A DNA stretch of 64,000 nucleotides, from NCBI GenBank assembly GCA_031257915.1, contig JAIRNR010000094.1, positions 1 to 64,000 of the forward strand, written 5' to 3'. The notes beneath the pieces are model-generated. The model saw only the letters and a list, made by a program, of their open reading frames with translations. It did not search any database and was not told the origin of the DNA. This DNA comes from Bacteroidales bacterium (GTDB taxonomy: Bacteria > Bacteroidota > Bacteroidia > Bacteroidales > P3). This document shows positions 27,500-64,000 of the stretch, piece by piece. The position numbers and the translations under genes are program-made. Position 1 is the first letter of the stretch; every line of letters begins with the position of its first letter.

Positions 27500-27991
27500 T
27501 TATCGGGAAATATCCAAAACTTCAAACAGCATTTTTCCTGCCGGTGCTTCTATCTCTGCTTTATCGCCAACCTTTTTTCCAAGCAGTCCTTTTGCAATAG
27601 GTGAACCAATGGAGATTTTGTTTTTTTTCAAATCGGCATCGTTTTCAGGAACGAGCGTGTAAGTCATAACCGCATTGTTTTTCGTGTTCCTGACTTTAAC
27701 AATTGACATAAGCAAAACTTTAGACGTATCAATTTTACTTTCGTCAAGTATTCTTGCATTTGCAATTTCCGCACGCAATTTTACAATTTTAAGCTCACAA
27801 AGCCCCTGCGCCTCCTTTGCTGCGTCATATTCGGCGTTTTCGGAAAGATCACCCTTATCACGCGCTTCGGCAATTTGTTTTGAAATATTGGGACGTTCCA
27901 CATTAGTTAAATGGTCGAGTTCATCCCTTAATTTTTGCAAACCTTCTTTACTGTAATATTTAATTTTATTCATAATCCTGATTTTATGCAA
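27500..27991 (-). CDS. greA: Transcription elongation factor GreA/GreB family
   Basis: YYSKEGLQKLRDELDHLTNVERPNISKQIAEARDKGDLSENAEYDAAKEAQ. Likely start is MNKIKYYS at 27973. Confidence 0.93.
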   Translation of the reverse strand: MHKIRIMNKIKYYSKEGLQKLRDELDHLTNVERPNISKQIAEARDKGDLSENAEYDAAKEAQGLCELKIVKLRAEIANARILDESKIDTSKVLLMSIVKVRNTKNNAVMTYTLVPENDADLKKNKISIGSPIAKGLLGKKVGDKAEIEAPAGKMLFEVLDISR

Positions 27992-28025
27992 TAAAAAAAG
28001 AAAACCCCCAATAATATGGGGAGTT
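27992..28025 (-). terminator. Intrinsic-terminator-like hairpin in the greA 5' leader
   Basis: Minus-strand AACTCCCCATATTATTGGGGGTTTTCTTTTTTTAT: G/C stem followed by a U-rich tract. Confidence 0.55.
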
Positions 28026-28068
28026 ATCTGTTCTCAAAGCAATAAAAGTTAAATTTGTCCGATGTGAA

Positions 28069-28076
28069 CAAAGTTA
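28069..28076 (-). promoter_or_regulatory. Candidate -7 element TAACTTTG upstream of greA leader
   Basis: Matches the Bacteroidota TAnnTTTG consensus on the minus strand; no clear -33 TTG seen. Confidence 0.4.
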
Positions 28077-61754: not shown

Positions 61755-62465
61755 CTACTCACCGGCTCGAGCCTTATATTTTGAACGGTTCACAAAAAAA
61801 TAAAACCACGAAAATACAGGGTAGCAAACAACGGAAAGCGCAACGCCGAGAAAGTCGAATACAGCTACGGCTACTGTCACAAACACTATAAACAGGTATA
61901 ATACCCACTGTGCATGCAGCGACCAGTCTGTTACTTTTAGCGAGAACATCCGCATATTGCAGACGAGCAGGAATGAAAGAACAACAGCAAAAATAAGGAG
62001 TTGTTCCGGCTGCCAGATAAAACCGGTTACTGCCCAATGTGCCGAAAGCGCAGCCCAAAACAGTGCGTTTGCGGGCGTGGGCATTCCCTTAAAGTAGTGG
62101 TGCTGTTCGTTATCTATATTAAACTTTGCAAGGCGGTATGCGGAGGCGAGCGCAATTAAAAATGCGATATACGTCCAGTATGGTGTACCCGCAGTTGTTT
62201 CAGTGTTGTATTTTATCATCACAAACGCCATTGAAGCAGGAACAACACCGAAACTTACAACGTCCGATAATGAATCAAGTTGCGCTCCGAGAGGACTGCC
62301 CGTTTTCAGCAATCTTGCAACAAGACCGTCCGCAACATCAAATAGAGCCGCAATACCGACAAATATTGCAGCCCATAACATGCTATCGTTATAAATATTA
62401 ACGAGCGATAAGCAACCGAAAAAAAGATTGCCGAGCGTCAAAAAATTGGGAATATGTTTCTTCAT
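61755..62465 (-). CDS. pssA: CDP-diacylglycerol--serine O-phosphatidyltransferase
   Basis: IPNFLTLGNLFFGCLSLV; DVADGLVARLLKTGSPLGAQLDSLSDVVSFGVVPA. Confidence 0.94.
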   Translation of the reverse strand: MKKHIPNFLTLGNLFFGCLSLVNIYNDSMLWAAIFVGIAALFDVADGLVARLLKTGSPLGAQLDSLSDVVSFGVVPASMAFVMIKYNTETTAGTPYWTYIAFLIALASAYRLAKFNIDNEQHHYFKGMPTPANALFWAALSAHWAVTGFIWQPEQLLIFAVVLSFLLVCNMRMFSLKVTDWSLHAQWVLYLFIVFVTVAVAVFDFLGVALSVVCYPVFSWFYFFVNRSKYKARAGE

Positions 62466-63283
62466 ACGATATTTTTTTCCAACTGCAAAAACACTTGCGG
62501 CAGATACGCTACAATATCGCTTGCAGTCATTGATGTTTGTGAAAGAGCGGCGGCGGCGAGGTTGCCTGCCGTACCATGGATATAAACGCCCAGAACAGCC
62601 GCATTATATGCACTGTAATCCTGCGCCGTTAAGCCAAGCAATATGCCTGTAAGAACATCGCCGCTACCTGCTGTCGCCATTCCGGAATTACCTGTTTTTA
62701 TTATTGTCGGTTCGCGATTCGGAGCAGTTACGGTATTGGGAACACCTTTTTTTATAACAATGCAGCCGAAACGATCGGAAAACGCTTGTTGTGATTTTAG
62801 TGTTGCGTCAAATTTTTCCGCCGCTGTCATTAACCGTTCGTATTCTTTTGCATGTGGAGTAAAAATACTGCCGGCTGTAATAAGCGAAAGTAATGACGGC
62901 TCGGCAGCAATAACGTTAATTGCATCTGCGTCAAAAATCATTGGACGCGGATTGTTTTTCAGTAGCGATTGCAACATTGAAAAAATTCTTTCGTTTGCGG
63001 ATATTCCCGGTCCGACAGCAATAGCACTGTATTTCTCAAGATTTTTCGGATACGTGTCGTAAATTTTCATTATTGCTTCAGGCACGGATGTCTGAATTAT
63101 ACTGATATTTTCGGGTGGAATTGCAACAGATACAAGCCCTATGCCGCTGCGAAGTGCGGCACGCGCACCAAGCACAGCTGCGCCTGCCATACCGTAAGAG
63201 CCTCCGATAAGCAAACCATGTCCGAATATACCCTTATGCGCGTCAACAGCACGTGGACGAAATAATTTTTCAATATCTGTCAT
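62462..63283 (-). CDS. nnrD: NAD(P)H-hydrate dehydratase (YjeF C-terminal type)
   Basis: HKGIFGHGLLIGGSYGMAGAAVLGARAALRSGIGLVSVA; TPHAKEYERLM; NSGMATAGSGDVLTGILLGL. Confidence 0.93.
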   Translation of the reverse strand: MTDIEKLFRPRAVDAHKGIFGHGLLIGGSYGMAGAAVLGARAALRSGIGLVSVAIPPENISIIQTSVPEAIMKIYDTYPKNLEKYSAIAVGPGISANERIFSMLQSLLKNNPRPMIFDADAINVIAAEPSLLSLITAGSIFTPHAKEYERLMTAAEKFDATLKSQQAFSDRFGCIVIKKGVPNTVTAPNREPTIIKTGNSGMATAGSGDVLTGILLGLTAQDYSAYNAAVLGVYIHGTAGNLAAAALSQTSMTASDIVAYLPQVFLQLEKNIV

Positions 63284-63290
63284 CCTGTAT

Positions 63291-63319
63291 TTGTTTTTTC
63301 AAAAAAATGCGTACCTTTG
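63291..63319 (+). promoter_or_regulatory. Promoter TTG-N18-TACCTTTG on plus strand between nnrD and asnS
   Basis: TTG 63291-63293; TACCTTTG 63312-63319; no annotated plus-strand gene downstream. Confidence 0.55.
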
Positions 63320-63353
63320 CATTGCGAATTTAATTAAATGTTTTTTCTAAAGA

Positions 63354-63386
63354 AGCGGGGGGCAGTGATTGCCCCTCGTTTTTTTT
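63354..63386 (+). terminator. Intrinsic terminator: GGGGCA-GTGAT-TGCCCC hairpin followed by eight T
   Basis: CGGGGGGCAGTGATTGCCCCTCGTTTTTTTT read directly; polarity (T-run) is plus strand. Confidence 0.8.
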
Positions 63387-63405
63387 AGTCAAATAGCAAG
63401 TTCTA

Positions 63406-64000
63406 CTAAAACTCGGCGTTTTGCGGATAGCGAGGGAATGGAATAACATCCCGGATATTTGTCATGCCTGTAATGAAAAGAAGCAGACGTTCAAAACCAA
63501 GCCCGAAACCACTGTGAGGTGCTGTACCGAATTTACGCGTATCTAAATACCACCACATATCTTCGGATTTTATACCAAACTCGTGCATACTGCCAAGCAA
63601 TTTTTCGTAATTCTCCTCACGTTGCGACCCGCCGATAATTTCACCTATTGACGGAAATAGAACATCCATTGCGCGTACTGTTTTTCCGTCCTCATTCTGT
63701 TTCATGTAAAACGCTTTTATCTTTTTCGGATAATCGGTAAGAATAACAGGATTTTTAAAATGTTTTTCCACTAAATAACGCTCGTGTTCACTCTGCAAAT
63801 CAGTACCCCATTCAACTTTGTATTCAAACTTTTGTCCTGACGTTTTAAGAATTTCTATTGCTGCCGTATAGTCCAAACGTGTAAAAGTCGCTTCAATTAT
63901 ACTTTCTAATCGTGCGATCAATTCCCTGTCATACATGTTGCACAGAAATTCCAAATCCTCGCGGCAGTTGTCAAGCGCATACCGAACGAGATATTTCAGA
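63406..64000 (-). CDS. asnS: Asparaginyl-tRNA synthetase, 5' end outside window
   Basis: C-terminal class II motif [34 protein letters not shown]; frame stays open to 64000 ([26 protein letters not shown]). Confidence 0.93.

Follow-up and report, generated by a model that had tools for sequence, protein, structure and literature searches.

Results

The 122 bases between asnS and nnrD in a Bacteroidales genome carry, on the strand opposite to both genes, a promoter-like sequence that is followed within a short distance by a hairpin and a run of T. Does this arrangement constitute a gene for a small RNA, as a preliminary description of the locus had proposed, or is it explained by something less? 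We analysed it within a window of 64,000 nucleotides (the whole stretch of DNA presented) and in its source genome (G000; 2.49 Mb in 109 contigs, 86% complete). Its order was deduced from relatives and from the promoter type; a contig search with NnrD yielded only three Bacteroidales sequences, at 45-46% identity. The promoter, a tiny open reading frame, the hairpin and the T-run were all found at exactly the positions, to the base, given in the preliminary description.

Genomic surroundings

The gap is bounded by nnrD, encoding NAD(P)H-hydrate dehydratase (62462-63283; PF01256, E 3.6e-58), and by the 3' part of asnS, encoding asparaginyl-tRNA synthetase (63406-64000; PF00152, E 7.6e-36). Both genes lie on the minus strand, so that the unit does run opposite to each of its neighbours, as had been noted. 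The order of genes on the minus strand is metG, mltG, rpoD, asnS, nnrD, pssA and a HAD hydrolase gene, where we take the first three to be metG, mltG and rpoD (a sigma-70 type factor) from reading their sequence. Immediately ahead of asnS, and in its orientation, come the sigma-70 type rpoD and the mltG-like gene (G000 C18 64810-66763, corresponding to L125 810-2763).

A probable promoter for the primary sigma factor of Bacteroidetes

The putative promoter spans 63290-63319 on the plus strand. It consists of a -33 box TTTG (63290-63293, with TTG at 63291-63293), a spacer of 18 nt after TTG, and a -7 box TACCTTTG (63312-63319), which can be read in the longer form TACCTTTGC (63312-63320). The primary sigma factor of Bacteroides has the promoter consensus TAnnTTTG, with TTTG near -33 (PMC7366714). 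Within the window the bare motif TANNTTTG showed no excess over shuffled sequences, so its presence by itself proves nothing. The longer form TACCTTTGC occurred 92 times in the genome compared with 45 times for a reversed control. We further examined 1.14 of the 2.49 Mb, with genes called there by a simple ORF selection. In this portion 71 of 159 occurrences of TANCTTTGC were intergenic and mostly pointed toward a gene, whereas its reversed pattern was intergenic in 5 of 76 cases.

A promoter weight matrix trained on 137 sites preceding genes and tRNAs gave the target a score of 20.2. Sites scoring at least as high numbered 74 in 1.14 Mb, and 59 of these were non-coding, though ~93% of bases were called as coding. 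When the 122-base stretch was searched as DNA against 190 genomes of the family, a 30-base promoter block from around 63290-63340 came up throughout; it stands, for example, before a tRNA-Leu and many protein genes. The target promoter is indistinguishable from tRNA and protein-gene promoters of its own genome and family. The weight matrix and the family-wide occurrence both indicate that the unit has a promoter of its own and of a known type, as is expected of an intergenic sRNA gene in Bacteroidales, and judged by its sequence the promoter at 63290-63319 is almost certainly genuine.

Applied to the minus strand from 61.7 to 72 kb, which takes in rpoD, asnS and nnrD, the same matrix detected no promoter of this type scoring at least 10. 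For this reason nnrD may have to rely on transcripts that read through the hairpin.

The hairpin is a strong terminator on the plus strand only

Folds of both strands were compared for the putative intrinsic terminator at 63349-63386 (plus strand). Its GC-rich arms (63349-63364 and 63370-63385) form 16 pairs around a 5-nt loop (63365-63369), and eight T follow at 63379-63386. The preliminary description had spoken of a strong GC hairpin with eight T, and the energies bear this out: the minimum free energy of the plus-strand RNA of 63326-63388 was -23.9 kcal/mol (z = -5.07), which none of 200 shuffled sequences equalled. The minus-strand RNA reached -14.9 kcal/mol. G-U accounts for three of the 16 plus-strand pairs, and these become A-C mismatches on the minus strand, while the reverse case occurs in no pair; the tail is eight T on the plus strand as against CTTCTTTA on the minus strand. 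The 58 gene-end hairpins found in 1.14 Mb include just two whose T-run is on the antisense side alone, and the target is one of them. By these modelled folds the hairpin is strong as a terminator on the plus strand only, and hence it is more than just an asnS terminator. Most likely it belongs to the plus-strand unit, which would thereby possess the same-strand intrinsic terminator of an intergenic sRNA gene.

The predicted RNA and its open reading frame

Taken together, the positions of promoter and terminator predict a transcript of ~55-62 nt (63325-63386, plus strand), with a start near 63324-63327 as estimated from the distance to the -7 box. Between the -7 motif and the stem lie ~29 bases of AT-rich DNA, and the predicted RNA would begin with an AU-rich segment (63325-63348) that is unpaired in the fold. 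When this 5' segment was tested for pairing with 807 translation-start regions, it performed no better than shuffled sequences. The unit matches no Rfam family, and neither ARAGORN, also at a lowered threshold, nor Rfam detected a tRNA or tRNA remnant between promoter and terminator, so that it is not a tRNA transcription unit.

A 16-codon open reading frame, MFFLKKRGAVIAPRFF, extends from an ATG at 63338 to a TAG ending at 63388 on the plus strand. Its codons had been said to form the terminator hairpin, and they are indeed largely dictated by the A-tract, the stem and the T-tract of the terminator. An ATG reading frame of at least 16 codons was also present in 3.7% of shuffles of the 70-nt stretch. 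Because of both observations the reading frame is weak evidence in itself, and the peptide has probably arisen only as a consequence of the hairpin sequence. A leader peptide, offered earlier as the other reading of the locus, or a small-protein gene would be in keeping with an intact ATG frame ~13 nt past the predicted start site. However, the regulated gene that a leader-peptide attenuator needs downstream on the same strand is absent, which leaves attenuation nothing to control, and no relative was found. We regard a coding function as extremely unlikely.

Promoter-terminator units elsewhere in the genome

The 1.14 Mb contain 112 promoter-like sites outside coding sequence, from which we judged how unusual such a unit is. 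Twelve of them serve tRNAs and 75 protein genes; the remaining 25 are orphan, distant or of the terminator-before-gene type, several of them at contig ends. Among these 25 orphan or leader-class units the target has the strongest terminator (-21.3 kcal/mol). Short promoter-terminator units are mostly tRNA genes or leaders of same-strand genes (nusA, greA and others). A terminator with no close same-strand gene behind it was seen at the target, at L108 11841 and, more weakly, at L124 974.

The unit at L108 11841-11975 (G000 C1, plus strand) is likewise free-standing, ~115 nt in length, contains no tRNA and has no Rfam match; it is a second candidate intergenic sRNA. At L118 174-320 (G000 C11), a promoter is followed by a leader of ~136 nt and a strong terminator (-18.8 kcal/mol) before a lipoprotein-like gene, again with no Rfam match, which may be a leader regulator or an sRNA. 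Within the window, a greA-like gene on the minus strand (27975-28069) has a promoter (TAACTTTG at 28069) and ~69 nt later a terminator just before the start codon, a layout that resembles the GraL leader of E. coli greA.

Relatives and conservation

The preliminary description had proposed to look for conservation of the asnS-nnrD unit across Bacteroidales, and had held that a -7 motif and hairpin lacking conservation in related genomes would refute an RNA gene. As a whole, the unit is not conserved in the relatives searched. Of 47 other asnS 3' flanks in the family, none has an asnS-facing promoter followed by a terminator at this place. Across 190 family genomes the DNA search matched essentially the promoter part only, and the whole unit was absent, as it was from G001, the other genome of the genus that was compared. 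In G001, asnS and pssA lie on one contig but are separated by three different genes, each of them on the minus strand, and nnrD was not found in that genome. From their sequence, we take the three to encode methyltransferase-like, TonB-receptor-like and beta-propeller-like proteins. No second copy of the unit was found in G000.

Conservation and covariation, which are usual for intergenic sRNA genes but are not required of them, are thus missing here; with the unit conserved in no genome searched, neither covariation nor selection can be demonstrated. As far as the sequence collections reach, the unit appears to be private to this genome or species. In B. thetaiotaomicron, 27 of 49 high-confidence intergenic sRNAs are strain-specific (PMC7366714), so that an unconserved unit may still be an sRNA. 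What stands of the proposed small RNA gene is a plus-strand promoter and terminator that form a unit of their own, built like a short intergenic sRNA gene; its conservation does not.

Comparison with known RNAs of Bacteroides

RNA genes of such a kind are already known in Bacteroides, while the target's own unit was seen in no relative examined. The 49 high-confidence intergenic sRNAs of B. thetaiotaomicron have a start site and an intrinsic terminator, and 76% of its intergenic sRNA candidates have this promoter type (PMC7366714). The target resembles them in its promoter, its intrinsic terminator and its intergenic position, and they too are often strain-specific. It differs in being predicted from sequence, and since the flanking genes are close its start would count as antisense by the 100-nt rule of PMC7366714, whose authors warn that many of the antisense start sites in Bacteroides could be spurious. 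The DonS-type cis-antisense RNAs described in the same paper are, like the target, short RNAs opposite neighbouring genes; unlike them, the target has no adjoining susC homolog.

The FopS sRNAs of B. thetaiotaomicron (Rfam RF04319) are 65-70 nt long, with a sigma-ABfr promoter, an unpaired 5' part and a terminator (PMC11697453). The target shares with them the canonical promoter type, a length in the ~65-70-nt class, the unpaired 5' segment and the single terminator hairpin. Membership of this family was rejected: the match scored 18.8 bits compared with a gathering score of 56, the terminator half alone aligned, and model positions 1-27 remained unaligned, so that the R1 seed is not found in the 5' segment. 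Paralogous copies are also lacking, because G000 has a single copy of the unit and no FopS match. Other weak Rfam matches (L20 leader, SQ2397, MIR8008, RsaD and others) fell far short of their gathering scores, and for most of them it was the terminator that matched.

Competing explanations

Three further accounts of the unit have to be weighed. It could be a relic, in which the promoter of a lost gene (a divergent neighbour of nnrD, or a tRNA) was left beside a leftover terminator after rearrangement, and any transcript would be inert. The interval between asnS and pssA is variable, as the gene content of G001 illustrates, and ~11 of the nnrD loci in relatives have an outward-facing TANNTTTG at most 300 nt upstream of nnrD. 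With the tRNA itself subtracted, the distance from -7 box to T-run is ~40-70 nt in the tRNA units of the genome, and it is 59 nt in the target; moreover, one relative (L033) has a tRNA-His near the end of asnS and an asnS-facing promoter 254 nt from the asnS stop. Against this, promoter and terminator are both intact and a tRNA remnant is not detectable. We give the relic a real but minor share of belief. Somewhat less probable, and in our view unlikely, is a terminator of asnS that works both ways by chance beside a chance promoter. The hairpin does begin ~20 nt past the asnS stop, and on the minus strand it is preceded by an A-tract and followed by T-rich sequence, but there the helix is broken by the A-C mismatches, is 9 kcal/mol weaker and ends in CTTCTTTA. 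In many family members, asnS is directly followed by a close same-direction gene, apparently rpoN, with no terminator.

The unit might instead control nnrD and pssA in cis, antisense transcription or a promoter-bound polymerase lowering read-through from asnS, an explanation that overlaps with the one we prefer. It draws on the -33 box being 7 nt from the nnrD start codon, on a minus-strand promoter for nnrD not being visible and on the full complementarity of the predicted RNA to the intercistronic RNA. These arguments are purely positional, and a missing motif match does not prove a missing promoter; we consider this account rather improbable.

We favour, at somewhat better than even likelihood, a genuine, free-standing and lineage-specific plus-strand unit that makes a short RNA. 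On the best reading it is a young short sRNA gene, possibly inert, antisense to the asnS-nnrD intercistronic RNA. The housekeeping sigma factor would start plus-strand transcription at ~63325, and RNA polymerase would stop at the T-run ~60 nt further on. The resulting short RNA would have a 5' segment that is AU-rich and single-stranded, and then the terminator hairpin. Any action would most likely consist of base pairing, either with targets in trans by way of the AU-rich segment, or in cis with the asnS-nnrD intercistronic stretch, to which the RNA would be perfectly complementary. With no promoter of this type seen for it on the minus strand, nnrD is probably dependent on read-through from upstream. 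A recently born antisense cassette between asnS and nnrD might then serve as a transcriptional valve, with polymerase at this site or the 60-nt RNA setting the read-through of a long rpoD-asnS-nnrD-pssA transcript, an elaboration that we think quite unlikely. A substantial part of the probability falls on an RNA that is transcribed but has no action. If transcribed, the unit would be a further example of a possible origin of short sRNA genes in Bacteroidales, in which a rearranged intergenic region brings together a terminator and a housekeeping promoter and no ancestor is recognisable.

Resemblance to the rimP-nusA leader

The transcript part alone, searched against 393 genomes of the order, gave weak matches, mostly to its AT-rich part, together with six rimP leaders. 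The rimP-leader transcription attenuator has a GGGc..gCCC stem, and the 2010 text on it makes no mention of Bacteroidetes (PMC2965389). Over 28 nt, the target hairpin was 89% identical (25/28) to the rimP-leader hairpin of six genomes from two other families. The two also share a promoter, a short leader, a G-rich 5' arm, a C-rich 3' arm and a T-run, and in a model that included leaders found with the target, the target ranked first in 1.14 Mb (27.9 bits). That model is circular, however. In an independent model built from 22 leaders located through nusA alone, the genome's own nusA leader took first place at 24.5 bits (E 0.0024), with the target 13th, amid ordinary terminators (15.1 bits, E 1.6), so the resemblance of the hairpins is not evidence. 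The target also lacks the position of such a leader, with neither rimP-nusA nor any same-strand gene downstream: what follows on the plus side is the convergent asnS, and nusA is on contig C64. That the unit is a stray copy of this attenuator is refuted at this sensitivity, and we leave the idea only a trace of probability. Similarity of GC-rich terminators across families is easily over-read.

The rimP-nusA leader itself, with a promoter, ~8-66 nt and a G-rich/C-rich terminator, was present in most family genomes examined (L229-L258) and in six genomes of two other families (L221-L226). In L235, L236, L238 and L240, the promoter upstream of rimP-nusA is followed by a tRNA-Leu-like sequence. 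The nusA leader of G000 lies around C64 53983-54067 (L167 14023-14067, minus strand). RimP (PF02576) was not found in this 86% complete genome, and the leader stands directly before nusA (C64 53603-53983, minus strand). It seems that rimP was lost from its operon in G000 while the leader stayed.
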